Shown in pieces: positions 8,633 to 33,401 of a stretch of 33,401 nucleotides of DNA (within the stretch, counting starts at the first letter, position 1; each line of letters begins with the position of its first letter). A program made the translations under genes and the position numbers. Location: the IMG/VR virus record IMGVR_UViG_3300032286_000463, positions 1 to 33,401 of that record. One strand, 5' to 3'. The stretch is from a virus. The notes under the pieces were generated by a model. The model had not been told where the DNA came from. It made no database searches and was given only the letters and a program-made list of their open reading frames with translations.

Positions 8633-8854
8633 ATGTTAATTAAATCACTAGAGAAAATGGAAGCAATTGTAGAAAACAATAAGTTTCTATCGTGGGATGG
8701 CTGGACAGTTCTAGAACTAAAAAGGTCTGACGTGGCTTGGATGAAGCCAAATGCTAAGTTCATCAATAACGCATGGTATATTGCTAATCGTTTTGATATC
8801 AATTCAGATGGCTGGAATATACCTGCTAGTTTGGTAAAGAAGAATGACAAATGA
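8633..8854 (+). CDS. Hypothetical protein with a Trp-rich core
   Basis: A 73-residue protein starting MLIKSLEKMEAIVENN. The ATG at 8633 follows AGAAAGGTGA, so the longer in-frame start at 8576 inside the previous gene is rejected. It contains FLSWDGWTVLELKRSDVAWM and NNAWYIANRF. The pattern resembles short conserved actinophage proteins; no function is known. It overlaps the WhiB gene by eleven bases. Confidence 0.68.
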   Translation: MLIKSLEKMEAIVENNKFLSWDGWTVLELKRSDVAWMKPNAKFINNAWYIANRFDINSDGWNIPASLVKKNDK

Positions 8855-9134
8855 AAACTGGAAAGATGAAGGTCTTTGCGTTGGAGATGATGTCAATCTA
8901 TTCTTTGACAAATATGAAGAAGACGTTGAAGTAAGAAAAGAAACAGATTCTTTGTGTGGTATTTGCCCTATGGCTAGAACTTGTTTTGCTGTTGGAGTAT
9001 CCCAGAAAGCAGTTGGAGTTTGGGGTGGTGTATACTTAGATAGAGGCAAAGTGTCTAGGGAATTCAACAAGCATAAGACTAAAGAAGACTGGGGAAATAC
9101 CTGGCAAAATTTAACAATAGATAGAGAGTACTAA
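8844..9134 (+). CDS. whiB: WhiB-family iron-sulfur regulator
   Basis: A 96-residue protein with the full WhiB signature: Cys12, then Cys38-x2-Cys41-x5-Cys47 for a [4Fe-4S] cluster, followed by GVWGG (58-62) and a basic tail (DRGKVSREFNKHK). WhiB proteins exist only in actinobacteria and their phages and work with the primary sigma factor; phage copies can alter host transcription. It lies inside a tightly packed operon, overlapping both neighbours, so it is probably co-expressed with them. The C-terminus after the basic tail is longer than in minimal WhiBs. Confidence 0.95.
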   Translation: MTNENWKDEGLCVGDDVNLFFDKYEEDVEVRKETDSLCGICPMARTCFAVGVSQKAVGVWGGVYLDRGKVSREFNKHKTKEDWGNTWQNLTIDREY

Positions 9135-16042: not shown

Positions 16043-16043
16043 A

Positions 16044-18896: not shown

Positions 18897-18937
18897 TAAA
18901 ATATCTTAATAATATTTAAAATAAGGGAGATAATGAA

Positions 18938-19888
18938 GTGAAAAAAAAATTTGTAATATGGGGACATCCATTACACACACACACCCATTCATATATTCAT
19001 AATGGATACTATAAAGCACTAAATGCTTTGGGATATGATGTAGTTTGGTTAGAAGATAACGAAGAAAATTCTAATGGAGATTTTGAAAATTGCATCTTTA
19101 TTACAGAAAAACAAGTAATGAGATTTATGCCTGTTACAAATTCATCAGTTTATTTAGTTCATAATCTTTATGGTCACGATGTTTTCAGTTCAGATTTTAA
19201 TAGATTTGCTGGATTACCAGCAAATTTTTATAATTTTTTAGTTTACCATGAAAACTACGACTGGAATGATGAAGTAGAAAAGATTAGTGACACATTATGG
19301 TGGCATCAAAAAAATAAAACTTTTGTAACAATGTGGGCAACTGACCTACTACCATATGAAATAGACCTTCTAGAACCAGTTTTATATGATGCAAATAGAG
19401 AAAACATTAATTTTGTTGGAAGTATCCAAGGAACAAATATTCAAGATTTTGCAAAAATATCTGAAAACAATGGAAAGAAATTTCAACATTTTGGTGGCTA
19501 TGGAAGATTAGAACACACAGTACTCGATGAAGAAAACTATACATCACATTTTTATAATGAAAACTCTGCTATTAATGTAATTAGAAATTCTTATATTTCT
19601 TTTGACATAAGAGAAGGTGGTCATCAAACTAATGGATATAATTCTTGTAGATTATTTAAAAATTTAAGTTATGGAATGCCAACTGGAACAAATGCGGTAA
19701 AAAGTAAAATATTGTTTGGCGACCACATAGTTGCAAATGAAAACTTAAATGACTTATATATTGAGATAGAGGAGTTCTATAAAAATTCTACTTATGACTC
19801 TATTAAAAATTCTATGAACTTTATAAAAGAAAATCATACTTATATAAATAGAGTAAAAGATATACTTTATATTTTAGAAAGAGTATAG
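18938..19888 (+). CDS. Probable GT-B glycosyltransferase
   Basis: A 316-residue protein using GTG 18938, with GGGAG eight bases upstream; the nearby ATG at 18933 is out of frame. It starts KKKFVIWGHPLHTHTHS, with mid-part INFVGSIQG and C-terminal SFDIREGGHQTNGYNSCR and FKNLSYGMPTGTNAVKS, which resembles the donor-binding domain of GT-B enzymes with their Glu-rich end. No family number can be given. Its N- and C-terminal segments recur in the broken copy at 20583-20753. Confidence 0.65.
   Translation: MKKKFVIWGHPLHTHTHSYIHNGYYKALNALGYDVVWLEDNEENSNGDFENCIFITEKQVMRFMPVTNSSVYLVHNLYGHDVFSSDFNRFAGLPANFYNFLVYHENYDWNDEVEKISDTLWWHQKNKTFVTMWATDLLPYEIDLLEPVLYDANRENINFVGSIQGTNIQDFAKISENNGKKFQHFGGYGRLEHTVLDEENYTSHFYNENSAINVIRNSYISFDIREGGHQTNGYNSCRLFKNLSYGMPTGTNAVKSKILFGDHIVANENLNDLYIEIEEFYKNSTYDSIKNSMNFIKENHTYINRVKDILYILERV
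19823..19854 (+). repeat. 32-bp direct repeat, copy 1
   Basis: Identical over 32 bases to 20679-20710. It encodes IKENHTYINRV near the C-terminus of the 18938 glycosyltransferase. Confidence 0.9.
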
Positions 19889-19890
19889 TA

Positions 19891-20586
19891 ATGCAAAATA
19901 AAAAAATTTGTATTATAAACATTGCAACCAACAAATATATTAAATTTATAGAACCTCTTTGGGAATCTATTAATAATAATTTTTTAAAAGATTGTGTGGT
20001 AGAATCTTTATTATTTACAAACCATGACATAAAACCAATTACTAAAAATGGAAAAGTTTCTAAAATTGAGCATGAACCATTTCCTACACCAACATTAATG
20101 AGATATCATTATATTAATAGCGAATCGGATTATTTAAAACAATTTGATTATTGTTTTTACTTAGATGCAGATATGCTTATTGAAAGTAAAGTTGGTGAGG
20201 AGATTTTAGGAGATTTAGTAGCAATTATTCATCCAGGATTTTTTAACAAAAGCCCCAATGAATTTACTTATGAAAGAAATGAGGCTTCTTTAGCATATAT
20301 TCCTATCGATAATGGGAATAAGTATTATGCTGGAGGTTTTAATGGTGGTACACCAGAACAATTTTTAAAAATGTCTGAAACTATTTTAAAAAACATTGAC
20401 ATAGATAAAAAGAATGATATAATTGCTATATGGCATGATGAAAGTCATCTTAATCGTTATTTGTTGGATAATCCACCAACACTAGAACTTAATCCAGACT
20501 ATTGTTATCCAGAAAGTTGGAACATTCCATTTGAAAGAAAAATATTGGCACTAGATAAAAATCACGAGGAGGTAAGGTCTTTATGA
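19891..20586 (+). CDS. GT6 glycosyltransferase (ABO blood-group transferase family)
   Basis: A 231-residue retaining glycosyltransferase. It is strikingly like the catalytic domain of vertebrate ABO transferases: FYLDADM with DxD (Asp92, Asp94), HPGFF (114-118), FTYERNEASLAYIP, YYAGGFNGG (145-153), IWHDESHLNRYLL (catalytic-type Glu184) and the closing KNHEEVR. GT6 enzymes add GalNAc or Gal in alpha-1,3 linkage to Gal, often requiring an alpha-1,2-fucose, and a GT11 gene lies just upstream. The known bacterial GT6 enzymes I recall have NxN instead of DxD; this one keeps DxD, suggesting metal dependence. A GT6 has been noted before in a cyanophage. Confidence 0.92.
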   Translation: MQNKKICIINIATNKYIKFIEPLWESINNNFLKDCVVESLLFTNHDIKPITKNGKVSKIEHEPFPTPTLMRYHYINSESDYLKQFDYCFYLDADMLIESKVGEEILGDLVAIIHPGFFNKSPNEFTYERNEASLAYIPIDNGNKYYAGGFNGGTPEQFLKMSETILKNIDIDKKNDIIAIWHDESHLNRYLLDNPPTLELNPDYCYPESWNIPFERKILALDKNHEEVRSL

Positions 20587-20753
20587 AAAAAAATATTATA
20601 TGGGGGCAGCCATATTTAAATTTAAAAAAAGATTATTCAAATGCAACGGAACAAAAGATTAGGTTAGCAATGAATTACATAAAAGAAAATCATACTTATA
20701 TAAATAGAGTTAAATCTTTATTTATTGTTTTAGGAGAAAATAATGAAAATTAA
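20583..20753 (+). pseudogene. Internally deleted remnant of the 18938 glycosyltransferase
   Basis: A 56-codon ORF. Its start MKKNIIWGQP matches the N-terminus (KKKFVIWGHP) and its end MNYIKENHTYINRV matches the C-terminus of the 18938 enzyme, while some 260 central codons are missing. The DNA shares a 32-base identical block. This is a decayed duplicate. It overlaps both neighbours and may now only couple translation. Confidence 0.8.
20679..20710 (+). repeat. 32-bp direct repeat, copy 2
   Basis: Second copy of the repeat at 19823-19854, 856 bp downstream, in the remnant gene. A substrate for recombination that would delete the GT6 gene. Confidence 0.9.
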
Positions 20754-21540
20754 TTTTATAACAACGGTAGTAAATAGACCCAAATTTGTTGAAATACAAT
20801 ATTTATTATTTAAAAAATATTGCACTATAGATTTTGATTTTTATGTTATAGATGATTCACATAATAATAATTTGTCAATTGAATTTTACGATATTTGTAA
20901 TAAATACAATATTAATTATATCAAAAAAGAAAGTGTTAATCAAAAATTTACTAATCCAGGAATGAATAATAATCCAAATGATGACTGTGCCCATGCTGTG
21001 CAATGGACATACGACAATATTATTTTTAAAAATATGAAAGATGATTACGTTTTATTTTTAGATTCGGATATGTTTTTGATTGATTATTTTAATCCGATAG
21101 AATACCTAGAAGATTATGTTATGTGTGGATTAGAACAAATTAGGGAAACAGAAAATAAAAATAAATTAGTTGATTATATTTGGAATGGCATAATGTTTTT
21201 TAATATGAAAAAAATGTTAGAAATTAATGATTATCCAGATTTTTGGTGTGGAACAGTTTATGATATTCCTGTAGACGTTGGTGGGCAGTTGCACTTTTTC
21301 ATTAAAAATAATAATTTAAATTGGAAAAAAACTGACGTTTTGTATCCAGAAAAAATATTTAATTATGATGTAAAAGATATAATTGCTAATTTTGAATTTC
21401 ATTGCAATAAAAAATTCTTGCATTTTCATGCTGGAACAAATTGGCATTTAGATTGGAAAAATAAAAAAGATTTAGATTTTAAAAAAGCAGAAGTTTTTGA
21501 AAAAATAATTAATCAATATTTAGGGCATAATGAAAATTAA
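20743..21540 (+). CDS. GT-A glycosyltransferase
   Basis: A 265-residue protein with an N-terminal nucleotide-binding strand MKINFITTVVNRP, a DxD-type motif VLFLDSDMFLID near residue 110, and a C-terminal LHFHAGTNWHLDW where His/Asp residues could coordinate metal or the acceptor. GT2-like in layout; linkage and donor unknown. AGGAG lies upstream. It is very AT-rich and overlaps the next gene by eleven bases. Confidence 0.75.
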   Translation: MKINFITTVVNRPKFVEIQYLLFKKYCTIDFDFYVIDDSHNNNLSIEFYDICNKYNINYIKKESVNQKFTNPGMNNNPNDDCAHAVQWTYDNIIFKNMKDDYVLFLDSDMFLIDYFNPIEYLEDYVMCGLEQIRETENKNKLVDYIWNGIMFFNMKKMLEINDYPDFWCGTVYDIPVDVGGQLHFFIKNNNLNWKKTDVLYPEKIFNYDVKDIIANFEFHCNKKFLHFHAGTNWHLDWKNKKDLDFKKAEVFEKIINQYLGHNEN

Positions 21541-22201
21541 TTTATTAGATATTCCAGTATATTATATTTCTTTAGAAGACCAATATGAAACACATACAAG
21601 AATGAACAATATGTTAACTGAACTTGGTTTTAAAAATATTATAAAGTTTATTGTTCAAAAACATCCAAGTGGCAAAATTGTTGGTTGTGCAGACTCTCAT
21701 GCTCAAATATTTGAAATGAATCCTGAGACTCCTTTCATTATTTTAGAGGATGATTGTTTTTTGAATACAAACTTTGTAGCAGAAATAGACATACCAGACG
21801 ATGCTGATGCTCTATATTTGGGAGTTTCAAGATGGGCACGGTATTGCAATCTTTCTGGAGACTATCTTCATGCAAAACAAAAAGATAAGAACCTGTATCA
21901 GGTCTATAATATGCTGGCTACTCACGCTATCCTATACATCAATAAGGAATATATAAGTAATTGTAAAAGAATAGCAAGATGGTCTGCAAACAAAAATCAA
22001 CATTTAGATATTGGTTTTGCCGAAAGCCATAAATTCTATAATGTTTATTCATTTGATAAACCATTGTTTTATCAAGAAAGTAGCAGAGAGATTACTAATA
22101 AAAACATTAGTAGTTTTAATGGTCATAATGATGCTGCATATCATGGAATTAATGTTTTTTTAAATCAGATGACTGGGTTTTTTCCGCTACCTTTGATGTG
22201 A
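21530..22201 (+). CDS. GT25-like glycosyltransferase
   Basis: A 223-residue protein. VYYISLEDQYETHTRMNNML, KIVGCADSHAQIF and PFIILEDDCFLN follow the pattern of GT25 (LPS/LOS galactosyltransferase and collagen transferase) enzymes: an opening SL..R, the GC..SH block and the E-D-D metal site. GT25 enzymes commonly use UDP-galactose, which the downstream GalE could provide. AT-rich like its neighbours. Confidence 0.75.
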   Translation: MKINLLDIPVYYISLEDQYETHTRMNNMLTELGFKNIIKFIVQKHPSGKIVGCADSHAQIFEMNPETPFIILEDDCFLNTNFVAEIDIPDDADALYLGVSRWARYCNLSGDYLHAKQKDKNLYQVYNMLATHAILYINKEYISNCKRIARWSANKNQHLDIGFAESHKFYNVYSFDKPLFYQESSREITNKNISSFNGHNDAAYHGINVFLNQMTGFFPLPLM

Positions 22202-24159: not shown

Positions 24160-24660
24160 ATGCAAACCTTTTTACCATTTAAGCAGTTCGATAAGTCTGC
24201 ACAAGCCCTAGATAATAAGAGATTAAATAAGCAAGTATTAGAGTGTTACCAGATTCTTAAGGTGTTGTCTAATGATGACCCACATGCTGCTTGGCGTAAT
24301 CATCCTGCTGTTAAGATGTGGCGTAACCATGAGGGACAGTTATGGCTGTACACTATGGCTATGGTTAAAGAAGCAGATATCCGTGGCATTAAGACTGATA
24401 AGAACGTTAGCAATCTTAATGAACTTAAGGCTGTGGCTGGGGATAGTTGGGGGTATTCAATTACTCCGTGGTCTAAAGACCCTTTCGTAATGTCTAGACT
24501 AACTACTAGCCATAAGGCTAACCTGTATACTAAAGACCCTGTGTATTATTTTGAGTTCTTTAGTGCTTTGGCTACATCTAATCCTTGTTGTCCTGAGCGT
24601 AAAGAACCTTGTAAGTACTACTGGGTTGCACATGACACACAGTTTAAGGTGGCTGCATAA
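24160..24660 (+). CDS. MSMEG_6728-like protein (pyrimidine dimer glycosylase-like family)
   Basis: A 166-residue protein. MQTFLPFKQFDKSAQALDNK, RLNKQVLECYQILKVL, WRNHPAVKMWRNHEGQLWLY and the C-terminal CCPERKEPCKYYW match a small family annotated MSMEG_6728 and sometimes related to pyrimidine dimer DNA glycosylase. A role in DNA repair is suggested by that annotation but not established from sequence. It has its own promoter. The coding strand here is T/G-rich, unlike the A-rich genes to the left. Confidence 0.7.
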   Translation: MQTFLPFKQFDKSAQALDNKRLNKQVLECYQILKVLSNDDPHAAWRNHPAVKMWRNHEGQLWLYTMAMVKEADIRGIKTDKNVSNLNELKAVAGDSWGYSITPWSKDPFVMSRLTTSHKANLYTKDPVYYFEFFSALATSNPCCPERKEPCKYYWVAHDTQFKVAA

Positions 24661-25559
24661 TGAATATTCTTGTTACTGGTGCGGCTGGGTATGTTGGTTC
24701 TCATATTGTTAGGTTGTTGGAAGACACGGAGCATAAGGTAATACTAACTGATTATAGGTTGGACGGTATTGATTTAGCCAATGACTATTTAGATTTAAAA
24801 TCATTGTTTATGAATAATGATATAGATGTTGTTATCCATACTGCCGCTAAAAAGGCGGTAGGTGAATCTGTAGACAATCCAGAGTACTATTATGAACAAA
24901 ACATACAAGGTATGAATAACCTATTGAAAGTTATGAAAGAATATAATGTTAAGAAGATTATTTTTTCATCTTCTGCTGCTGTCTATGGTGTGCAGGGTTC
25001 TGGTATAATTAAAGAAGATAGTGTTTGTGAGCCTATCAATCCTTATGGGGAGACAAAACTTATTAATGAGTGGATGCTATCTAATGGTGCTTCTTGGGGA
25101 TTACAGGCGATTAGTCTGAGATTCTTTAATGTTGCTGGGGCAGGTTGGGAAGACCTAAAAGATACTGGTAATGCTAACTTAATTCCTATTATAGAATCTA
25201 ATTTGGCTAATGGTGTTGCTACAAAGGTTTTTGGCACAGATTATGACACGCCTGATGGTTCTTGTGTTAGGGATTATGTTCATGTTTTAGATGTTGCTAA
25301 TGCACATCTGTTGGCTTTGGATGGCTTTAAAAATGGTCATCAAGTCTTTAATGTGGGTACAGGTAAAGGCTATAGCGTTCTAGAGATATTAAATGCTTTA
25401 AACGCAGATTATGAGGTTGTCCCAAGAAGACTTGGAGACCCATCTAGTTTGTTTGCAGATGTAGGTAAGATTAAGGATACTTTGGGGTGGGAGTCTAAAT
25501 ACACTCTCGAAGATATATTGAACGTAGGAAAGATAAATGAAACTATTAAAGATATTTAA
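24660..25559 (+). CDS. galE: UDP-glucose 4-epimerase
   Basis: A 299-residue SDR epimerase interconverting UDP-Glc/UDP-Gal and possibly the GlcNAc/GalNAc pair. Motifs: TGAAGYVGSH for NAD, HTAAKKAVGESV, SSSAAVYG, Tyr-x3-Lys in NPYGETKLINEW, and RFFNVAGA. It is about 40 residues shorter than E. coli GalE, with trimmed loops but a complete active site. It starts on the previous stop. Donor supply for the GT6, GT25-like and other transferases upstream is the likely purpose. Confidence 0.92.
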   Translation: MNILVTGAAGYVGSHIVRLLEDTEHKVILTDYRLDGIDLANDYLDLKSLFMNNDIDVVIHTAAKKAVGESVDNPEYYYEQNIQGMNNLLKVMKEYNVKKIIFSSSAAVYGVQGSGIIKEDSVCEPINPYGETKLINEWMLSNGASWGLQAISLRFFNVAGAGWEDLKDTGNANLIPIIESNLANGVATKVFGTDYDTPDGSCVRDYVHVLDVANAHLLALDGFKNGHQVFNVGTGKGYSVLEILNALNADYEVVPRRLGDPSSLFADVGKIKDTLGWESKYTLEDILNVGKINETIKDI

Positions 25560-25776: not shown

Positions 25777-26018
25777 AAGATATAGATTCAGAGATGCATG
25801 AGTTACCTGATTCAGTTAAAGAGACTCAGGAACAATTGGATAGCACTAAGAAGATGAGGGCATTTGTTATTGGCTTTGAGATAGGTCAGGAAGCAGAGAG
25901 AGACCATATCGTTAAACTGTTAAGCAGGATAGCAGATGAGTATCTTGAAGACAAGATGCTACTTGCCTCATCAATTATTCATAACGCTATTGCTTCTATC
26001 AAAAATTCGGGGGAATAA
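25764..26018 (+). CDS. Small GFxxG-type protein, paralogue 3
   Basis: An 84-residue helical protein. FVIGFEIGQEAERDHIVKLL continues the Gly/aromatic helical pattern of the preceding gene, which it overlaps by 13 bases. The C-terminus DKMLLASSIIHNAIASIKN resembles in position the end of the 12447 product. Function unknown. Confidence 0.62.
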   Translation: MGRLKDIDSEMHELPDSVKETQEQLDSTKKMRAFVIGFEIGQEAERDHIVKLLSRIADEYLEDKMLLASSIIHNAIASIKNSGE

Positions 26019-26040
26019 AAGAAGCCTTCATAATCCCTAG

Positions 26041-26046
26041 TATAAA
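26041..26046 (+). promoter_or_regulatory. Candidate -10 box before the 26072 gene
   Basis: TATAAA within ATCCCTAGTATAAAATACA, a sequence closely repeated at 26708-26729 in the origin region. No clear -35. Confidence 0.4.
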
Positions 26047-26071
26047 ATACACCTAGTAGAAAGAATAACCT

Positions 26072-26293: not shown

Positions 26294-26319
26294 AGTTATT
26301 GGCTACGCCATAGTTGATT

Positions 26320-26360
26320 TTATCAACATATCCACAGGGTTATACACATAGTTATCCACA
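26320..26360 (+). promoter_or_regulatory. DnaA-box cluster
   Basis: Four same-orientation nonamers near the TTATCCACA consensus: TTATCAACA (26320), ATATCCACA (26328), TTATACACA (26340) and a perfect TTATCCACA (26352). The last three start 12 bases apart. Confidence 0.75.
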
Positions 26361-26589
26361 GATAAATCTTACTGTATATCTTTGATAGCATAGTGGAGGG
26401 AAATGGAGAGATGTGGTATGGGTAATTGTACATCATATATCTTAAACTTAATAAACATCCACAAATCCCCTAGCCCCATATCCCCAAATACCCCTATCAT
26501 ATTTATGCCAATTTGTCAAGTGTTTTTATCAAATTGTTATAAAAAACATATCAAATATTAAATAAATAGATATAAAAATATCATATTTT

Positions 26590-26615
26590 GGGGAAAATAA
26601 ATAGCCCTTCGTAAT
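26590..26615 (+). repeat. Bipartite GGGGAAA-N11-TTCGTAAT motif, copy 1
   Basis: GGGGAAA 26590-26596 and TTCGTAAT 26608-26615. It lies just downstream of the minus promoter at 26630-26635. Confidence 0.75.
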
Positions 26616-26629
26616 GTCCTGTGTTATAT

Positions 26630-26635
26630 ATTATA
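26630..26635 (-). promoter_or_regulatory. Minus-strand -10 box in the origin region
   Basis: TATAAT on the minus strand, preceded by TATCCCTAG and an ATGTCTCTG element resembling the ATGTCAGnGGT promoters. It would transcribe leftward across the AT-rich stretch; no gene is there. Confidence 0.45.
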
Positions 26636-26737
26636 CTAGGGATATCAGAGACATTCTCCTCTACCCTGGCTCTGCCAGCCCCTTCGGGGTATATAAAAGA
26701 TAAGCCTTATCCCTAGTATAGTAAATACATATACCTC

Positions 26738-26766
26738 TTGACAAATAGGGGAAAGTATGCTATGTT
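26738..26766 (+). promoter_or_regulatory. Plus-strand promoter in the origin region
   Basis: TTGACA (26738-26743), 17 bases, TGC-TATGTT (-10 at 26761-26766). It reads through the iterons into a minus-strand gene, so any product is non-coding. Confidence 0.55.
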
Positions 26767-26772
26767 CGTAAT
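26748..26772 (+). repeat. Bipartite GGGGAAA-N10-TTCGTAAT motif, copy 2
   Basis: GGGGAAA 26748-26754 and TTCGTAAT 26765-26772. It brackets the -10 of the plus promoter. Confidence 0.75.
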
Positions 26773-26796
26773 GTCTGTTTATTCTAATTTGTATAA

Positions 26797-26866
26797 TGTA
26801 ACCTAAAAGTTACAAAACAAAATGTAACCTAAAAGTTACAAAACAAAATGTAACCTAAAAGTTACA
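26797..26866. repeat. Three palindromic iterons, 26-bp period
   Basis: TGTAACCTAAAAGTTACA at 26797-26814, 26823-26840 and 26849-26866, all identical, separated by AAACAAAA. Each is an inverted repeat TGTAAC/GTTACA with a six-base centre. Confidence 0.92.
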
Positions 26867-26872
26867 TATTTT

Positions 26873-26898
26873 GGGGAAAAATATTATACCATCGTAAT
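26873..26898 (+). repeat. Bipartite GGGGAAA-N11-ATCGTAAT motif, copy 3
   Basis: GGGGAAA 26873-26879 and ATCGTAAT 26891-26898. It encloses the -10 of the perfect minus promoter. Confidence 0.7.
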
Positions 26899-26911
26899 AC
26901 CTTTTTGTCAA
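26883..26911 (-). promoter_or_regulatory. Perfect-consensus leftward promoter
   Basis: On the minus strand TTGACA (26911-26906), 17 bases, TATAAT (26888-26883), with TGG completing an extended -10. Transcription from about 26876 passes through the three iterons toward the DnaA boxes with no coding gene. Confidence 0.85.
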
Positions 26912-26955
26912 TAGTTGGATTATAACAATTTGGTAACTTTGGTCGGCACAAGATA

Positions 26956-26975
26956 GCCCCCATGTCAATAGGGGC
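26956..26975 (-). terminator. Hairpin after the 26982 gene
   Basis: GCCCC (26956-26960) / GGGGC (26971-26975). The following minus-strand sequence is only moderately T-rich, so termination may be weak. GGTCGGCACA (26941-26950) follows it. Confidence 0.5.
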
Positions 26976-26981
26976 ATCCTG

Positions 26982-27251
26982 TTATTCTTCTTCTGGTAAG
27001 TCTAGTAAAGCATTTAGACTATCAAAGCCAGTGTCTTCCTGCTCTAGCCCAGATAGCAATAAAGCAAATGTTTCTTCAATAAACTTATTTGTGTTCTCAT
27101 TTGCTACAACAATCTCGTTGTCTAAGGCATAAGCCAAAGGCAATCCTAAATCGTTGTATTCAAAAAAGTCTGCGAATGTTTCGTCATTGCTGTATGTAAT
27201 CCATAGGTCAGCAAGTATCTCTACTTTTTTACTGAATGTTGTTTCTGCCAT
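26982..27251 (-). CDS. Acidic hypothetical protein
   Basis: An 89-residue helical, acidic protein starting MAETTFSKKVEILADLW. The start at 27251 has an AGAAAGAGAAAAG leader and lies below the ATGTCAG-type promoter at 27301-27323; the longer in-frame ORF to 27323 is rejected because it would begin at that promoter. No domain recognised. Confidence 0.65.
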   Translation of the reverse strand: MAETTFSKKVEILADLWITYSNDETFADFFEYNDLGLPLAYALDNEIVVANENTNKFIEETFALLLSGLEQEDTGFDSLNALLDLPEEE

Positions 27252-27432
27252 TTTGCTTTTCTCTTTCTTCTTCTGCTGTTTCACTGATGATTGTAAATCT
27301 ATTATACAAGACACCCCTGACATTGTAGGCTATGTAATACCCCACCATTTCTAAATCTAGTGTGATGTCTGCTAATTTATCTAGGATTATCTTTGCTAAC
27401 TTTTCTTCTTTCGTGATTATTCGTCTACGCAT
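27229..27432 (-). CDS. Hypothetical helical protein
   Basis: A 67-residue protein starting MRRRIITKEEKLAKIILDKL. Helical with a charged Glu-rich end (SETAEEEREKQ). Its own terminator-adjacent promoter (TGGTATAAT, 27465-27457) and an AGAGAAATA leader support it. Its 3' part contains the promoter for the next gene and overlaps that gene by 23 bases. Confidence 0.55.
   Translation of the reverse strand: MRRRIITKEEKLAKIILDKLADITLDLEMVGYYIAYNVRGVLYNRFTIISETAEEEREKQNGRNNIQ
27301..27323 (-). promoter_or_regulatory. ATGTCAG-class promoter
   Basis: Minus strand ATGTCAG (27323-27317), ten bases, TATAAT (27306-27301). Same layout as 30354-30376 and 33253-33275. No TTGACA-like -35. Confidence 0.7.
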
Positions 27433-27456
27433 TATTTCTCTATTCTCTTATGCTCT

Positions 27457-27465
27457 ATTATACCA
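27457..27465 (-). promoter_or_regulatory. Extended -10 promoter
   Basis: TGGTATAAT on the minus strand, immediately after the terminator at 27474-27509; leads to the gene starting at 27432. Confidence 0.65.
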
Positions 27466-27473
27466 AAAATTGT

Positions 27474-27509
27474 GGGGAAGCACAAGTAGCAATTTACCTA
27501 TGCTTCCCC
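27474..27509 (-). terminator. Rho-independent terminator
   Basis: GGGGAAGC (27474-27481) / GCTTCCCC (27502-27509), a perfect 8-bp stem, followed on the minus strand by ACAATTTTT. Confidence 0.78.
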
Positions 27510-27529
27510 TGGTTGACCAGACACAGAAA

Positions 27530-27557
27530 CCCCTAACTGCTCTAGTCGTTAGTAGGG
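27530..27557 (-). terminator. Weak hairpin after the 27565 gene
   Basis: CCCCTAAC (27530-27537) pairs imperfectly with GTTAGTAGGG (27548-27557). On the minus strand it is followed by GTTTCTG. Together with the next hairpin it separates two transcription units. Confidence 0.4.
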
Positions 27558-27564
27558 AGTGTTC

Positions 27565-27942
27565 TCAACCCACTAAGTTATGTAAGTCACTAATAGTCTT
27601 AACATTGTGTAGGCTATCTTGTGATTCGATGTTTATGCTGTAAGGGTCAGGTAGGTCGTTCAGCCAGTCGTTGATGTCCTTGCTAATCTCCAGAGCGTAT
27701 AGTTCGTCCCTAAAGTCCCACCAGTCCATACCGTATTCTAGTTCCTTACGATGCTCACGAATCATTGCAGTCTCCACTACCCCACATTCATACAGGATGC
27801 CTGTGTATACCTTGACTACATTGTCTTCATCTAATACATATATAGCAGGATTAAGAGTGATTGTATCTGACCACTGATTGATGCCATGCTCATCATGTCC
27901 TAAATCTCTAAACCAAACATTTATATCCCAATACTTTGTCAT
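27565..27942 (-). CDS. Hypothetical protein
   Basis: A 125-residue acidic protein. The first 70 residues alternate strands (YWDINVWFRDLG, NPAIYVLDEDNVVKVYTGI), followed by helices. No family recognised. It is the last gene of a chain of four overlapping minus-strand genes. Confidence 0.65.
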   Translation of the reverse strand: MTKYWDINVWFRDLGHDEHGINQWSDTITLNPAIYVLDEDNVVKVYTGILYECGVVETAMIREHRKELEYGMDWWDFRDELYALEISKDINDWLNDLPDPYSINIESQDSLHNVKTISDLHNLVG

Positions 27943-28097
27943 ACTATTCGTTGCTCCAGTTCTTCTAGTGTAGGTCCCTTGAATCTATCAGTATACCGCA
28001 TCTGCTTCGAAATGTCAAGCACATACTCAATAGCAGACTGCCATCCAGTTTCCCATGCTTTTTCTAATAGTTCATCTATGTTAGTATTATCTTCCAT
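27939..28097 (-). CDS. Small helical protein
   Basis: A 52-residue protein starting MEDNTNIDELLEKAWETGWQ at 28097, on the stop of the gene above (TAATG). The longer in-frame start inside that gene is rejected. The sequence AWETGWQSAIEYVLDI is reminiscent of the Gly/aromatic helices of the small paralogues at 12447 and 25537. Confidence 0.6.
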   Translation of the reverse strand: MEDNTNIDELLEKAWETGWQSAIEYVLDISKQMRYTDRFKGPTLEELEQRIV

Positions 28098-28459
28098 TAG
28101 TCCATGCTCCATTCTGTATATACACCATCGCCACCACATTCAGGGCAGTCGGGGTTACCTTCGCCTTCGTCATCCATACATTCGCACTCAACGAACTTGC
28201 ACACAGTTACGAAAGGGTCTTCGTCATCTGTCCACGGTATCTCAGTGATGTAGTATTGAATACGATTAGCCAGATGATATCCAGCCACAATGTAAACACC
28301 TTCGTCACCATCTAACTCAGTCCATACGGTAGAGTGTGGCTGTAAACAAACATAGTCTAGTTCTTCACCATAGGTCTCAAAGGCATAGCCATCGTTAGTT
28401 ATCTTGTTCTTGATAGGTCTATACTTTGTACGCCATTCGCTTTCAGTTATCTCATTCAT
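28097..28459 (-). CDS. Conserved phage protein with C-terminal zinc ribbon
   Basis: A 120-residue protein. The body contains FETYGEELDYV, STVWTELDGDEGVYIVAGYH and ANRIQYYITE, a pattern seen in phage proteins of unknown function. The end has Cys-rich ECECMDDEGEGNPDCPECGG, a zinc-ribbon-like segment. It overlaps both neighbours. Confidence 0.7.
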   Translation of the reverse strand: MNEITESEWRTKYRPIKNKITNDGYAFETYGEELDYVCLQPHSTVWTELDGDEGVYIVAGYHLANRIQYYITEIPWTDDEDPFVTVCKFVECECMDDEGEGNPDCPECGGDGVYTEWSMD

Positions 28460-28601
28460 CGTCTACCACCGTTGCTAGTAGAAGTTGGTTTATATAACTA
28501 TACACATCATCTGCCATAGGGTGTGGTATGTTGCCAACCATATCCATAATCTCATAGAGTTCATCTACAAGGCTTTCAGGTTTTGCTAGTATTTTTATCA
28601 T
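28452..28601 (-). CDS. Small hypothetical protein
   Basis: A 49-residue ORF starting MIKILAKPESLVDELYEIMD at 28601, with AGAGAAAG upstream in the leader type shared by this arm. It overlaps the next gene by eight bases (ATGAATGA). Mostly helical, acidic. Function unknown. Confidence 0.6.
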   Translation of the reverse strand: MIKILAKPESLVDELYEIMDMVGNIPHPMADDVYSYINQLLLATVVDDE

Positions 28602-28615
28602 AGGGTTTCTTTCTC

Positions 28616-29164
28616 TTAGAAGTGGAAATCTACTGGTACTAAACAGTATACACTACGATACTGCTTGTTGTCAATACCCAGTTTTTTTCTTAGGTAGGAA
28701 GTCTTTACTGTGCAGTCGCTAGTGTCAAAGAACCCACTGTCGTAGTTCCAGTAGCCACGCATAATCTTCAATGCACTTGACAGGCTAGGAATGTTAGATT
28801 CGTAAATCTCACCAAAATCAAGGGTATCTCCATTAGAATACTTAGTCATAATGGTATTGATAGTAGGGAAGTCAAACTCAGCAAAGTATTTGTTGAACTC
28901 ATCTAACTGTTGCTTATCTACATTATCTAATGCTTCTAAGAATGAACAGGCATTGTCATCATTGTAGATAAGGACAGGAACATCTTCCCACCTGCCACCA
29001 ACTGCATGCCAGTCAGACCAGCCACCAATGAAGCCATTGCCATCTGATTCGTGAAGCAGCCATTCACCTACTTCTTCCTTTGCTATGGCTGTAATTTCTT
29101 CGTCTGTATATTCTTCATCTAATTCAAGTTCTAATTCTGTTGCTAGGTATTGCATAGTATGCAT
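28616..29164 (-). CDS. Phage protein with DWHAVGGRW motif
   Basis: A 182-residue acidic protein. The centre SDWHAVGGRWEDV matches a Gly-Gly-Arg-Trp motif recurring in uncharacterised phage proteins; the C-terminal half contains MRGYWNYDSGFF and YRSVYCLVPVDFHF. The start has AGAGAAAGAG and its own promoter (29195-29223). It has been described in other phages only as hypothetical, as far as I know. Confidence 0.7.
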   Translation of the reverse strand: MHTMQYLATELELELDEEYTDEEITAIAKEEVGEWLLHESDGNGFIGGWSDWHAVGGRWEDVPVLIYNDDNACSFLEALDNVDKQQLDEFNKYFAEFDFPTINTIMTKYSNGDTLDFGEIYESNIPSLSSALKIMRGYWNYDSGFFDTSDCTVKTSYLRKKLGIDNKQYRSVYCLVPVDFHF

Positions 29165-29194
29165 GGGTTTACTCTTTCTCTAGGTTATATATCT

Positions 29195-29223
29195 ATGATA
29201 CAGGATAGGGTTCGTAAATACAA
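29195..29223 (-). promoter_or_regulatory. Promoter of the 28616-29164 gene
   Basis: Minus strand TTGTAT (29223-29218), 17 bases, TATCAT (29200-29195). Confidence 0.6.
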
Positions 29224-29230
29224 GCATTTC

Positions 29231-29255
29231 GGGGAAAAAGTTATCACTTCGTAAT
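29231..29255 (+). repeat. Bipartite GGGGAAA-N10-TTCGTAAT motif, copy 4
   Basis: GGGGAAA 29231-29237 and TTCGTAAT 29248-29255, just upstream of the minus promoter at 29195-29223. A further lone TTCGTAA lies at 29211. Confidence 0.75.
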
Positions 29256-29290
29256 CATTAGGCATGTCTAATAAAATTATTATGTAAAGT

Positions 29291-29335
29291 TGTCGGCACA
29301 AAACCAGGGCAGTCAGATTGCTCCAACCACCCTGG
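29291..29335 (-). terminator. Terminator followed by TCGGCA motif
   Basis: CCAGGG (29304-29309) / CCCTGG (29330-29335), then TTTTGTGCCGACA on the minus strand. Inside the loop, GGGCA/TGCTC gives a second small hairpin similar to the conserved 3' hairpins. Confidence 0.72.
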
Positions 29336-29348
29336 TCCCCTATTATCC

Positions 29349-29528
29349 CTATATGTCAGCCAAAACTGCTTTAGCATGTGAAACAAAGTTATCAAACTCT
29401 TCGTCTCGTGTTAGTCTCATCTCTATTAGTTTCAATACTTCTAGAGTAGGCATTTGATTTATACTCCTGACTTTTTTGAAGCCATCAATCATAGACAGGA
29501 CGATTTCTTTATCAGTCATCTCAGACAT
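29349..29528 (-). CDS. Small helical protein
   Basis: A 59-residue protein starting MSEMTDKEIVLSMIDGF at 29528, eight bases after GGAG. The in-frame ATG at 29543 inside the preceding gene is rejected. Helical, no recognised domain. Confidence 0.62.
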   Translation of the reverse strand: MSEMTDKEIVLSMIDGFKKVRSINQMPTLEVLKLIEMRLTRDEEFDNFVSHAKAVLADI

Positions 29529-29793
29529 TATGGAACTCCACACTAATCATATCTGTCAGGTCATTATACTTGACAGAATTATAAATGATTTCTGCTAATT
29601 TTTTGATTGCTGAACGCTCTAGTTCTTCGTCAGTTCTCTTCAAATCTTCGTAGTCTTCTTCGGTTCCGTCTTCAGTATCAAAGTCTTCTACTTCACTGAT
29701 AAAGATGTTATCTTTATTGACATCAATCATGTATGTAATTGTTGCTGAAACCATTCTCTTAGTTTCGTAGTGTTCGTCAGTTAGTTCAAGCAT
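29521..29793 (-). CDS. Acidic hypothetical protein
   Basis: A 90-residue protein starting MLELTDEHYETKRMVSATI at 29793, after GGAGAAG; a longer start at 29832 lies within the gene above. A run of Asp/Glu (residues about 38-60) separates a strand-rich front from a helical end. Very acidic proteins of this sort sometimes mimic DNA, but nothing proves it here. Confidence 0.62.
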   Translation of the reverse strand: MLELTDEHYETKRMVSATITYMIDVNKDNIFISEVEDFDTEDGTEEDYEDLKRTDEELERSAIKKLAEIIYNSVKYNDLTDMISVEFHNV

Positions 29794-30136
29794 ACTTCTT
29801 CTCCTGCTTCTCCCAGTATTCATCCTGAGCAATCATACTATCCAAATCGCTAATGCGACCTTCAATACAAGCAATAGCAAATCTGCTCAATGCTTTAGTG
29901 TGTAGTTCGTGTTCTAGCATTGCTAGTTCTTCTCTGTGTTGCTCCAACATAGTTTTTTCCAAGTCTTCTTCTTTCTCTTTATACATAGTTAGATAAATGT
30001 TTGCTTGTTCTGCTTCCCATTCATCGTGGGTAGGGCAGTAATCTTGATTACCTTCGCAAATGCGACAGAATGAGTGGCAGTCAAAACCGCCATCGTGGAC
30101 AGGGCATTCAACCTTATCGCATTCACACTCACTCAT
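29786..30136 (-). CDS. Cys/His-rich N-terminus plus coiled-coil protein
   Basis: A 116-residue protein. The first 37 residues have eight cysteines and three histidines (CECDKVECPVHDG, CHSFCRICEG, YCPTHDE), likely two zinc sites. A long charged helix KEKEEDLEKTMLEQHREELA follows, giving a zinc-finger-plus-coil layout. It overlaps both neighbours. Confidence 0.68.
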   Translation of the reverse strand: MSECECDKVECPVHDGGFDCHSFCRICEGNQDYCPTHDEWEAEQANIYLTMYKEKEEDLEKTMLEQHREELAMLEHELHTKALSRFAIACIEGRISDLDSMIAQDEYWEKQEKKYA

Positions 30137-30320
30137 CTTCTTCGTCTTCTTCTTCGTCTTCTTCCAGTTCTTCTACTCTAATGTCTTCAACGCTGTCGTA
30201 TTCAAGGGTAGCGTTATCGCCATAGTAAGAGTGCCAAGCCATTTCTTCCGCTTGTTCTTCGCTATCTGCGACAATCTCTCCACAGTAGTTTACTTGGATT
30301 TCTACATAGTATTTTGGCAT
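30129..30320 (-). CDS. DpnD/PcfM-like small protein with acidic tail
   Basis: A 63-residue protein. YYVEIQVNYCGEIVADSEEQ followed by AEEMAW fits the DpnD/PcfM-like fold (strand, turn, helix). The tail is an uninterrupted run of Glu/Asp. It is the first gene of the 29521-30320 unit behind an ATGTCAG-class promoter, with AGAGAAAG as ribosome binding site. Confidence 0.65.
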   Translation of the reverse strand: MPKYYVEIQVNYCGEIVADSEEQAEEMAWHSYYGDNATLEYDSVEDIRVEELEEDEEEDEEDE

Positions 30321-30353
30321 TTGTTATCTTTCTCTTAGGGTTGTTATGTATTT

Positions 30354-30376
30354 ATTATAGGGGATACCACTGACAT
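30354..30376 (-). promoter_or_regulatory. ATGTCAG-class promoter
   Basis: Minus strand ATGTCAG (30376-30370), ten bases, TATAAT (30359-30354). The ATGTCAG begins at the upstream stop codon (TAATGTCAG). Confidence 0.72.
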
Positions 30377-30684
30377 TAGAACATCTGTGATGCTTGCTCT
30401 AACATCTCATCTTCTAGGATTTGATGATTATACTTGATAAGGCTATCAGTCTTCTCATTGTAGATACCCCTAATCATCTTTAGGAATGACTGGAACTCTG
30501 GACCACTGGTATCGTGCCAACCACGCTGGGCACTGTCCCATAGTTGCTTCTCTAGGCTTTCCAATCCCCACACGATAAACTGTAATCTTTGGTAAGATTG
30601 TAGGTCGCTTGCGTCAGGGTAGATGTAAGGGGCATTGTCTTCATCATAAACAGGGGTAAGGATAATAGTTTCGTTTTCATTCAT
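30376..30684 (-). CDS. Hypothetical protein
   Basis: A 102-residue protein starting MNENETIILTPVYDEDNAPY. Central helices (LQFIVWGLESLEKQLWDSAQ, EFQSFLKMIRGIYNE). No family recognised. The ATG lies at the expected +1 of its promoter, with no ribosome binding site, so translation is probably leaderless. Confidence 0.65.
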   Translation of the reverse strand: MNENETIILTPVYDEDNAPYIYPDASDLQSYQRLQFIVWGLESLEKQLWDSAQRGWHDTSGPEFQSFLKMIRGIYNEKTDSLIKYNHQILEDEMLEQASQMF

Positions 30685-30690
30685 AAGTCA

Positions 30691-30719
30691 ATTATACAGA
30701 TGTAGCACAGGATAGTCAA
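30691..30719 (-). promoter_or_regulatory. Promoter giving a leaderless mRNA
   Basis: Minus strand TTGACT (30719-30714), 17 bases, TATAAT (30696-30691), then six bases and the ATG at 30684. Confidence 0.78.
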
Positions 30720-30726
30720 TAGATTT

Positions 30727-30751
30727 GGGGAAAGCGTTACCCTTTCGTAAT
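30727..30751 (+). repeat. Bipartite GGGGAAA-N10-TTCGTAAT motif, copy 5
   Basis: GGGGAAA 30727-30733 and TTCGTAAT 30744-30751, upstream of the promoter at 30691-30719. Confidence 0.75.
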
Positions 30752-30819
30752 CGAAATAAATGATTAACTAGTTAGAAATTGCCGACCCAAATTCCCCACT
30801 TTTGTCAAGTAGGAAATGG

Positions 30820-30842
30820 TGAGCAGTTTGAAATCTTGCTCA
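30820..30842 (-). repeat. Conserved 3' hairpin, copy 1
   Basis: TGAGCA / TGCTCA with an 11-base loop, 12 bases after the stop of the DUF932 gene. Same family as 32056-32078 and 32599-32621, with paired stem substitutions. Confidence 0.78.
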
Positions 30843-30853
30843 GGATTGTTTTG

Positions 30854-31867
30854 CTATACGGAAGCCAAGACCAAGTTCATTAGTCTATTCTTCTCAGCGT
30901 TGATTACAGGGTCAAAGCCAGAAGCAGAAGCGTAAATACTTTCGTTGTTAGTTCCACGAGCATTACGATACCAGTCTAGGCGTTCTGTTAGAGCATTCAA
31001 AGCACCCCAAGCAGTTCCAGAGATAGTGTTATTGTAATCGCCAACATAGATAGATTGAATTAGGTCAATCTTGTCTGTCCACTTTTTCATAGAACCCTTG
31101 CTGTCCTTAGTTGGCATAGGGTAAGCCTTGAGAACAATCTCATCAAACTTAGCCTGAGTGATTTCTTTGCTAATCATTTCCTTAGCAAGTAAATCAAACT
31201 CGTCTAGGTAGTGATTAGCCAAGCCCAACGCTTCACGAGCAACAGCAATTTTACCTTCTGCTGTTTGTGTGTGTCTAATCTTGAATGACTGCTTCAAACC
31301 CTTTTTACCTTTTAGAGAAGATAGAGCAAGGTTTAGAGTGTTAGCACATACAACACGAACAGGAGTGATAGAAGCCTGAATTGCGATAGAACCATCGTGA
31401 GATGTGTTTAGCAATAGATAAGACTTGACAACATCAGACACGCCATTAGGGTCAAGAACAGTCTCACGCTCTAAAGCGATTGAACCAAAAACTTGTCTGC
31501 CACCCTTGATTGAACCAGCAGTTTCCCAACGCCCACCACCATCAAGCAGATTATCGCCAAACGAGAACAAGTCTTCATTCTGTAATGGAACATAACGCTC
31601 ACCAACGACACCAAGAATGTCTGTCTGCTCTGCGTTGAATGGATTGGTGCGAGATACGAACGAGTAGTTTCTGTCGCTAGTGAAACCAGCAGGAACAGCA
31701 ACATCTTCAAGTCTGACATTCCAGTTGTCTAGGCTTGCGAGTGATAGCATTTCTGCGGTAGATACTTCTTCCTGAAACACAGTTCCAAGATTGTGCCAAG
31801 CAGGTTGGCGGAGTGAAGCAAAACTAGCCTGACCAGTTGCTTCGTTGATTTCTAATTCGTGAGCCAT
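30854..31867 (-). CDS. DUF932 phage/plasmid-like protein
   Basis: A 337-residue protein starting MAHELEINEATGQASF at 31867, with AAAGGTG nine bases upstream; in-frame starts further up lie in the leader. Family blocks include RQPAWHNLG, FVSRTNPFNAEQTDILGVVGERYVPLQN, a GGRQVFGSIAL strand, ITPVRVVCANTLNLAL and the C-terminal WGALNALTERLDWYRNARG. DUF932 proteins are frequent in phages and plasmids; their role is unknown, and links to DNA metabolism rest on genome context. It has a strong promoter (31908-31936) and a 3' hairpin. Confidence 0.9.
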   Translation of the reverse strand: MAHELEINEATGQASFASLRQPAWHNLGTVFQEEVSTAEMLSLASLDNWNVRLEDVAVPAGFTSDRNYSFVSRTNPFNAEQTDILGVVGERYVPLQNEDLFSFGDNLLDGGGRWETAGSIKGGRQVFGSIALERETVLDPNGVSDVVKSYLLLNTSHDGSIAIQASITPVRVVCANTLNLALSSLKGKKGLKQSFKIRHTQTAEGKIAVAREALGLANHYLDEFDLLAKEMISKEITQAKFDEIVLKAYPMPTKDSKGSMKKWTDKIDLIQSIYVGDYNNTISGTAWGALNALTERLDWYRNARGTNNESIYASASGFDPVINAEKNRLMNLVLASV

Positions 31868-31907
31868 AGGGACTACACCTTTCATTGTTGGATTTGTTTG
31901 ATACTCA

Positions 31908-31936
31908 ATTGTCTCACGATTTGGGGGAAATGTCAA
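31908..31936 (-). promoter_or_regulatory. Promoter of the DUF932 gene
   Basis: Minus strand TTGACA (31936-31931), 17 bases, GACAAT (31913-31908). Confidence 0.72.
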
Positions 31937-31948
31937 GTGTTTCGTAAA
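31924..31948 (+). repeat. Bipartite GGGGAAA-N10-TTCGTAAA motif, copy 6
   Basis: GGGGAAA 31924-31930 and TTCGTAAA 31941-31948. The N10 is exactly the -35 region of the DUF932 promoter. Confidence 0.75.
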
Positions 31949-31984
31949 CTAATTTTACATTAGTTATCATTTCGTTACTTTTGC

Positions 31985-32054
31985 GGTCGGCACAAAAAAT
32001 CCCCCTGCTAATTTTACCTATCTAATTAGGATAGTCAATCTTCACAGGGGGATT
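31985..32054 (-). terminator. Strong terminator followed by TCGGCA motif
   Basis: AATCCCCCTG (31998-32007) / CAGGGGGATT (32045-32054), 10-bp stem, loop containing CTATC/GATAG, then six T and GTGCCGACC on the minus strand. Confidence 0.88.
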
Positions 32055-32055
32055 G

Positions 32056-32078
32056 TAAGCAGTTTAGACACTTGCTTA
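32056..32078 (-). repeat. Conserved 3' hairpin, copy 2
   Basis: TAAGCA / TGCTTA with loop GTTTAGACACT (plus strand), 12 bases after the stop of the 32090 gene. Confidence 0.8.
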
Positions 32079-32089
32079 GGTGTTTACTT

Positions 32090-32527
32090 TTACAGCAAAT
32101 CCAAAACGGAGTTGTATGTGCTGGAAGTAATGGTTTCTTGGTCAGTTAGTTTTAGAAGTTTTAGGGTCTTCTCCAACTGCTCTTTGTTTTGTCTGTTCTG
32201 CCAAGTGTCAGGGTCGCTAGGCTTCTCTGGCTTTGTGCCAATCTTAGCAACGATTTCCTTACCAACTGCGATAGAAACAGAACCACGATAATCGCTGTTG
32301 ATAGAGATGTTGTCTTCCTGATTGCCATAGTCGCTATAATCAACAATAGACTTTTTGTTTTTGCTAACCAAGTCAATTAGGTCTGCTGTGAAAGAAACAA
32401 TCTGCTTCTTGTATGCTGATAGCAACTTTGGATACTCTACTTCTGCCTTAGCAATTTCTGCTAACTTGGTTTCAACCATTTCAACTACTACTGATGTTGG
32501 GATTTTTACGGATACGGAACGAGCCAT
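32090..32527 (-). CDS. Conserved actinophage hypothetical protein
   Basis: A 145-residue protein starting MARSVSVKIPTSVVVEMVET. An N-terminal strand-helix is followed by a YPKLLSAYKKQIVSFTADLI helix, a Gly/Ser strand region (RGSVSIAVGKEIVAKIG) and PDTWQNRQNKEQLEKTLKLL. This opening and overall layout are familiar from conserved early genes of actinophages; the function is unknown. Leader AGAAAGTAG. Confidence 0.72.
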   Translation of the reverse strand: MARSVSVKIPTSVVVEMVETKLAEIAKAEVEYPKLLSAYKKQIVSFTADLIDLVSKNKKSIVDYSDYGNQEDNISINSDYRGSVSIAVGKEIVAKIGTKPEKPSDPDTWQNRQNKEQLEKTLKLLKLTDQETITSSTYNSVLDLL

Positions 32528-32569
32528 AATGTTTTGCTACTTTCTATTTGTGGGTTTATGTATAGTTCA

Positions 32570-32598
32570 ATTATACAGGATTTAGGGAAATTTGTAAA
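32570..32598 (-). promoter_or_regulatory. Promoter of the 32090 gene
   Basis: Minus strand TTTACA (32598-32593), 17 bases, TG-TATAAT (-10 at 32575-32570). It abuts the hairpin at 32599-32621. The spacer carries a degenerate TTTCCC half motif. Confidence 0.72.
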
Positions 32599-32621
32599 TG
32601 GGCAGTTTAGACATTTGCCCA
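32599..32621 (-). repeat. Conserved 3' hairpin, copy 3
   Basis: TGGGCA / TGCCCA with loop GTTTAGACATT (plus strand), 23 bases after the stop of the 32644 gene. It may also terminate that message. Confidence 0.8.
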
Positions 32622-32643
32622 GATGTTATAGTTCTGTTATGAA

Positions 32644-32802
32644 CTACTTGGCAGTTGTCCAGCGTGACTGACCAGCAACATCAAGTTTGATACGGAACGA
32701 GCCGTTTGCGTTCTTGATTACTTCCTGAACAGTGCCAACAACGCCAGACTTCTGGGTTGCGAACTGTGAGCCAACAGTTGGAACGGAAAATGTGTTTCCC
32801 AT
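32644..32802 (-). CDS. Small conserved protein (SH3-like)
   Basis: A 52-residue protein starting MGNTFSVPTVGSQFATQKSG. Strand-rich, ending SFRIKLDVAGQSRWTTAK. Likely a tiny beta-barrel. Leader AGAAAGAAGC; a promoter with a 5' hairpin lies upstream. Function unknown. Its codon use includes more C and G than most of its neighbours. Confidence 0.65.
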   Translation of the reverse strand: MGNTFSVPTVGSQFATQKSGVVGTVQEVIKNANGSFRIKLDVAGQSRWTTAK

Positions 32803-32828
32803 TTTTGCTTCTTTCTACTTGTAGTGTT

Positions 32829-32879
32829 TTACAACTTTTGTTGTAATACAAGTATAAGGGATAATCGTGGGAAAGTCAA
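32829..32879 (-). promoter_or_regulatory. Promoter with 5' hairpin for the 32644 gene
   Basis: Minus strand TTGACT (32879-32874), 17 bases, TATACT (32856-32851). TTACAAC-AAAA-GTTGTAA (32846-32829) begins near the predicted start. Confidence 0.78.
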
Positions 32880-32892
32880 GGGTATTCGTAAA
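32868..32892 (+). repeat. Bipartite (G/T)GGGAAA-N10-TTCGTAAA motif, copy 7
   Basis: TGGGAAA 32868-32874 and TTCGTAAA 32885-32892, over the -35 of the 32644 promoter. A second TTCGTAA is at 32898. Confidence 0.7.
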
Positions 32893-32927: not shown

Positions 32928-32939
32928 GGTCGGCAAAAA
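32928..32939 (-). other. GGTCGGCAAAAA post-gene motif
   Basis: Fourth same-orientation copy of the GGTCGGCA(C)AAAA element (others at 26941, 29291, 31985), just after the stop of the 32947 gene. Confidence 0.6.
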
Positions 32940-33252: not shown

Positions 33253-33275
33253 ATTATACTTGCTACCACTGACAT
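33253..33275 (-). promoter_or_regulatory. ATGTCAG-class promoter
   Basis: Minus strand ATGTCAG (33275-33269), ten bases, TATAAT (33258-33253). As at 30376, ATGTCAG starts on the upstream stop (TAATGTCAG). Confidence 0.72.
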
Positions 33276-33401
33276 TAGATTTGTATTCTTTTGAAATCGT
33301 TTATCCATTCTTCACATACAGCACAGGCAAACTCCATACCCTGCTCTTCTTCAAACTCGTGGTCGTTATCAGCAAACCATTGAACATAGTCAGGTCTAAG
33401 C
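33275..33401 (-). CDS. Partial protein with CxxC, C-terminal end
   Basis: Open from the right edge of the window; 41 codons visible to TAA 33277-33275. It ends EFACAVCEEWINDFKRIQI after an acidic stretch (DNDHEFEEEQ). The Cys-x2-Cys suggests half of a zinc site. The remainder lies outside the window. Confidence 0.6.
   Translation of the reverse strand, partial: LRPDYVQWFADNDHEFEEEQGMEFACAVCEEWINDFKRIQI

Follow-up and report, generated by a model that had tools for sequence, protein, structure and literature searches.

Activators such as CRP at class I and class II promoters, p4 of phage phi29 and Ogr/Delta of phage P2 act from upstream sites that are helically phased to the promoter, and p4 and CRP activate or repress transcription depending on the position of their sites. 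In mycobacteriophage L5, asymmetric 13-mers known as stoperators are found in an orientation which follows transcription (PMC9283540). At the middle promoters of phage T4, the place of the -35 element is taken by the MotA box, which is centred at -30 and combined with a sigma70-type -10 element (PMC2988021). Here we compare with these systems a bipartite repeat, termed E1, from a 33,401-nucleotide stretch of viral DNA (IMG/VR record IMGVR_UViG_3300032286_000463, positions 1 to 33,401; in the following, the window). E1 reads GGGGAAA-N10/11-TTCGTAA on the plus strand and TTACGAA-N10/11-TTTCCCC on the minus strand, on which the neighbouring genes are encoded. It is co-oriented, confined to one gene arm of one group of phages and helically phased to promoters, and these properties point to the site of an upstream activator or dual regulator more than to a stoperator.

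A co-oriented repeat between the genes of one arm

E1 is a real and strongly non-random element. Five exact copies occur in the window (starting at 26590, 26748, 29231, 30727 and 31924), compared with an expectation of 0.00 from 100 shuffles, and those at 26873 (ATCGTAA) and 32868 (TGGGAAA) carry one mismatch each in the plus-strand half-site given. The preliminary description of this DNA had listed these seven copies as co-oriented and located between genes. All seven are genuine, but the two with a mismatch are not exact, and a weaker eighth copy at 26009-26033 (plus strand GGGG(G)AAT...TTCATAA) had been overlooked. Orientation and placement are as described, since all eight copies point the same way and none lies within a gene of at least 70 amino acids. 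The copy at 31924 falls in the TTG-extended form of an open reading frame (ORF; 30854-31936), the ATG of which is at 31885. The A/T flanks of E1 are weakly conserved. No comparable copy is found in the other 26 kb of the window, where the next best score of a position weight matrix (PWM) is 14.5.

The terminase and DUF932 proteins of this 33-kb virus record share ~54% and ~53% identity, respectively, with their counterparts in Stanwilliamsviridae phages of Streptomyces. The DUF932 gene (phrog_1221; 30854..31885, minus strand) is a marker of the E1 arm, and a search of viral contigs for DUF932 provided the related set of 80 loci (81 with the window). Environmental sequence data contain many such phages, DUF932 relatives being encoded by 447 viral-contig stretches. 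The repeat is not absent from close relatives: exact E1 occurs in the 80 loci 24 times with a gap of 10 and 33 times with a gap of 11, and not once in reverse-complement or reversed controls of the same loci. The two-block PWM was trained on these loci, with the opposite strand and the number of exact matches serving as controls; above a score of 18 it recovers 745 copies on the DUF932 strand of the 81 loci and a single one on the opposite strand. Nor is E1 frequent within genes, as 14 of 566 non-redundant sites (~2.5%) lie deep inside ORFs, compared with 26% of random positions.

In records of ~100 kb, nearly all strong copies are located within one arm of about 10-15 kb; a 91-kb record, for example, carries 15 copies at 68.7-80.9 kb and none elsewhere. 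Sites are fewer and weaker in the more distant records G007 and G013, and the phages Angela and Jay2Jay hold weak copies in their noncoding left ends, which in Angela adjoins the physical terminus. The DUF932 block of Streptomyces phage Angela constitutes an 11-kb direct terminal repeat, genes 1-22 recurring as genes 258-279. Terminal repeats of 11-12 kb are described for the BE-cluster phages, which are presumably virulent and lack lysogeny genes (PMC10690885). Judged by homology to Angela, the E1 arm of the phage from which the window comes would likewise be a terminal repeat, and it probably holds early genes.

An unbiased pattern scan of IMG/VR returned at least 120 stretches, and among the matches listed, every one of the 62 that carry at least two copies of E1 belongs to this group, membership being judged by proteins homologous to those of these phages. 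When a stricter and longer E1 pattern was applied to 84,980 cellular genomes, 16 scattered single matches were obtained, none of them in a named actinobacterium. The phages which carry E1 are ~100-kb viruses of Actinobacteria related to the Stanwilliamsviridae, and a literature search found no paper describing the motif or its regulation.

Spacing to promoters and the noncoding cluster

The position of E1 relative to promoters had been described as variable, which is true within the window; across the relatives, however, the positions fall into discrete helical classes. The -10 element begins ~16.5, 27, 37, 49.5 or 61 bp after the start of TTTCCCC, with a period near 11 bp, and the start of the -35 element, counted from the first T of this half-site, falls at about -6.5, which is inside the gap, or at about 14, 25.5 or 38. 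For the -35 element, the best period across 95 downstream-gene families is 11.6 (p<0.0002 against a smoothed null). Relative to the inferred start site, E1 is centred near -35, -45, -55, -67 or -79, and one orthologous gene family (family 0) shows different phases in different phages.

A second promoter element, E3, with the consensus AATGTC(A/G)GWGG, is located ~17 bp upstream of TATAAT, from which it is separated by N7, and occupies about -31 to -20. Its 449 instances are found mainly in the E1 arm and usually lack a conserved -35 element. At E3-type promoters, the -10 element begins 27, 36-38, 48-51 or 60-62 bp from the TTTCCCC start, and the phasing is pronounced (period 11.3, power 33.5 compared with a null maximum of 11.8). 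E1 lies downstream of the -10 element in only 8 of ~180 E3-type matches. The window contains three such promoters with weak -35 elements on the minus strand, two of the form AATGTCAGTGG-N7-TATAAT (33253..33276 and 30354..30377) and one of the form AATGTCAGGGG-N7-TATAAT (27301..27324), the ATG of the element starting at 33275, 30376 and 27323, respectively.

Among the window's own copies, all of which are given here as minus-strand sites with minus-strand promoters, those at 29231..29254 and 30727..30750 (both exact, gap 10) belong to the phased class in which the -10 element begins 37 bp past the TTTCCCC start; the promoters downstream of them are TTGTAT-N17-TATCAT (29195..29223) and TTGACT-N17-TATAAT (30691..30719). 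The copies at 31924..31947 (exact, gap 10) and 32868..32891 (one mismatch) fit the class with the -35 element inside the gap. The former holds the consensus TTGACA of the DUF932 gene promoter (TTGACA-N17-GACAAT, 31908..31936), and the latter the TTGACT of an overlapping TTGACT-N17-TATACT promoter (32851..32879). A further short repeat, GTGCCGACC/TTGCCGACC, is found on the minus strand at 26941-26949, 29292-29299, 31985-31993 and 32928-32935, and inverted at 30780. It sits just past terminator-like hairpins and ~45 bp upstream of E1, and Angela has TGTCCG...CGGACA palindromes at comparable places.

Three more copies are clustered at 26300-26980, in A/T-rich noncoding DNA where plus- and minus-strand genes converge (a 3'-3' junction), and the weaker eighth copy (minus strand TTATGAA-N11-TTCCCCC, score 24.8) lies at the left edge of the noncoding region. 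The cluster comprises an exact copy with gap 11 (26590..26614, score 31.0), an exact copy with gap 10 (26748..26771), which lies upstream of a -35/-10 pair at 26744-26715, and the copy at 26873..26897 (TTACGAT-N11-TTTCCCC), the gap of which holds the -10 element of a perfect consensus promoter with TG (TTGACA-N17-TATAAT, 26883..26911) directed into noncoding DNA. The same region contains three near-identical 26-bp repeats (AATGTAACCTAAAAGTTACAAAACAA, 26795-26872) and, beside the E1 cluster, three DnaA-box-like 9-mers (TGTGGATAA, TGTGTATAA and TGTGGATAT; 26328..26360, minus strand). With respect to these sequence features it looks like a replication origin, which would allow E1 a role in replication, and similar noncoding regions with five or more copies of E1 are present in the relatives L141 and L158. 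A hairpin, TACCCCGAAGGGGCTGGC...GCCAGGGTA (minus strand, 26621-26725, near 26655-26700), forms a stable fold in the window (z -4.4) and has no match in Rfam; its sequence is conserved in L141 and L158, but folds poorly there. A promoter-like repeat, ATCCCTAGTATAnnATA, occurs in both orientations at 26033-26049, 26627-26643 and 26708-26727.

Possible functions of the repeat

We give an even chance to the explanation that E1 is the putative site of an asymmetric regulator, either an activator or a dual regulator, which controls the promoters of one arm. In this model, a probably phage-encoded protein would bind E1 in one orientation and on one helix face relative to a host-type RNA polymerase, and would most likely act by touching the polymerase. 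Activation would result where E1 sits upstream of the -35 element, and repression would be probable where it covers the -10 element, as at 26873. The fixed orientation together with the whole-turn spacing argues for an asymmetric bound protein which contacts RNA polymerase from one face, and the centres near -45, -55, -67 and -79 favour activation. That the regulator is encoded by the phage, as the preliminary description had supposed, is likely, because E1 is asymmetric and co-oriented, recurs between genes and is peculiar to one phage group.

Two proteins are candidate leads for the factor that would bind E1. The first is a WhiB-like transcription factor (8844..9134, plus strand), a candidate partner which is also encoded by all nine long relatives; WhiB proteins bind sigma region 4. 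The second is a MerR-like protein, a homologue of gp69, whose gene adjoins the DnaB helicase gene in all nine long relatives and in Angela. In seven of the nine long relatives, HTH_17 matches this protein below the curated cut-off. Its sequence has no significant match in the PDB, and its structural model, which is of low confidence (predicted local distance difference test score, pLDDT, 61), has no significant fold match, although MerR-family regulators are among the weak ones; as an E1 binder it stays a lead only. A conserved protein of the arm (32090-32527) was set aside, as it is predicted to form a long helix with no obvious DNA-binding fold. Together, E1 and E3 may constitute a phage-specific promoter grammar, in which the host polymerase would be redirected by a WhiB-type phage protein seated on sigma region 4 together with a protein that binds E3, as an independent counterpart of AsiA and MotA of T4, and the E1 protein would serve as an enhancer or switch for the terminal-repeat genes; this extended scheme we consider rather unlikely.

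Several findings weigh against an activator or dual regulator at E1. In the cultured Streptomyces relatives, E1 is weak and found mainly in the noncoding left end, and its link to gene promoters is not seen; promoters were called by sequence match and their start sites inferred; and at sigma70-type promoters without E3 the best -10 period is 15, the edge of the tested range, and not 11, although the positions of the -35 element do show helical phasing. Other findings are typical of operators: in class A, one half-site lies on either side of a consensus -35 element, and the copy at 26873 overlies a promoter which matches the consensus at 12/12 positions (26911-26883). Furthermore, E3 promoters with an upstream E1 have a mean -35 score of 2.18, with 45% good boxes, compared with 0.64 and 17% without E1, and these better -35 boxes suggest that E1 is not there to make up for a weak promoter, as the site of a simple activator might be. 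The latter observations would also suit an operator of a phage repressor which shuts the early arm promoters and possibly blocks elongation as at stoperators, its strict orientation being that known for the L5 repressor. The asymmetric, co-oriented and intergenic sites, as in L5, the half-sites on both sides of a -35 or -10 box, seen in classes A and F, and the clustering in a 3'-3' junction can be read in the same way. We nevertheless regard a repressor operator as doubtful, because phased upstream centres at -55, -67 and -79 are unexpected for steric repression or elongation blocks, and neither a tyrosine or serine integrase nor an HTH_3 domain was found above cut-off in the nine long relatives.

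An iteron-like replication or packaging site, at an origin or the end of a terminal repeat, would leave unexplained why most copies sit at single promoters spread over 10-15 kb and phased to their -35 and -10 elements. Even so, same-orientation clusters beside DnaA-box-like sequences in A/T-rich noncoding DNA, the E1-like copies next to Angela's physical terminus and the universal MerR-like gene adjoining the DnaB helicase gene would all fit a primary function of this kind, with the promoter positions secondary, which we consider distinctly unlikely. E1 is bipartite and oriented, with a spacing that varies by about one base like that of a -35/-10 pair, so that a sigma factor or RNA polymerase of the phage might use E1 itself as a promoter. 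We rejected this as very improbable, given half-sites only 10-11 bp apart, the C-rich second half-site and the absence of sigma region 4 matches above cut-off in the nine long relatives; moreover, sigma70-type or E3-type promoters are found downstream at preferred phases. An extracytoplasmic function (ECF)-type promoter on the plus strand was likewise discarded, its spacing of 4-5 bp being too short compared with the ECF consensus. Finally, the association with host-type promoters, and the fact that the phage proteins considered as binders are candidates only, would be compatible with a conserved site of a host transcription factor exploited by the phage. Since every multi-copy contig among the IMG/VR matches listed is of this phage group, and the strict pattern gave only scattered single matches in cellular genomes, with none in a named actinobacterium, we rejected a host site, too, as scarcely probable.

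Other features and comparison with known systems

Elsewhere in the window, three separate genes match one nucleotide-sugar epimerase family (phrog_540; 14005-15033, 16023-16994 and 24660-25559). Within 15001-22000, the G+C content is ~26-27% at 15-16 kb and 18-22 kb, compared with 32-44% elsewhere.

E1 adds a new element to a known general class of phage regulatory sites and marks an undescribed regulon. It is a specific marker of this whole regulon and, likely, of the terminal-repeat arm, and both its orientation and its helical phase are predicted to matter. Taken together with E3, it prompts one to ask how the host enzyme is redirected by actinophages that have no recognised sigma factor.

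Compared with the Stanwilliamsviridae (Samistivirus/BE-cluster Streptomyces phages), the window shares homologues of DUF932 and terminase, and its E1 arm matches the terminal repeat of Angela; unlike the window's phage, Angela has, when scanned, neither strong E1 copies at gene promoters nor E3 promoters. In layout, the E3 promoters resemble T4 middle promoters, as E3 replaces or adjoins the -35 element at a fixed distance from a TATAAT -10 element; in addition, WhiB, which all nine long relatives encode, belongs to a family that binds sigma. E3 (AATGTCAGTGG) differs from the MotA box in sequence and position, however, E1 has no counterpart in T4, and homologues of MotA or AsiA did not come to light, though no search was aimed at them.

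The likeness to L5 stoperators noted in the preliminary description holds for the asymmetry of the repeat and for an orientation that follows transcription, in promoters and intergenic DNA of phages with an actinobacterial host. A stoperator function is not supported. Whereas the operators and stoperators of L5-type (cluster A) mycobacteriophages are 13-mers spread over the genome, E1 measures 24-25 bp, consists of two half-sites with a variable gap of 10-11 bp, is confined to one arm and is helically phased to promoters. The long relatives yield no integrase or HTH_3 domain above cut-off, the BE cluster is presumably virulent (PMC10690885), and the sequence of E1 is unrelated to the L5 consensus. 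With phased activators such as CRP, p4 and Ogr/Delta, E1 shares site centres that fall at discrete places upstream, roughly one turn of the helix from one another, and a spacing to the core promoter which varies by whole turns (11.6 on the -35 element, 11.3 on the E3-type -10 element). Unlike their sites, it is no palindrome, has a fixed orientation and a different sequence, and the E3 promoters to which it is linked have the better -35 boxes. E1 is unusual in having, all at once, a fixed orientation, half-sites with a variable gap, helical phasing and a distribution limited to one arm.

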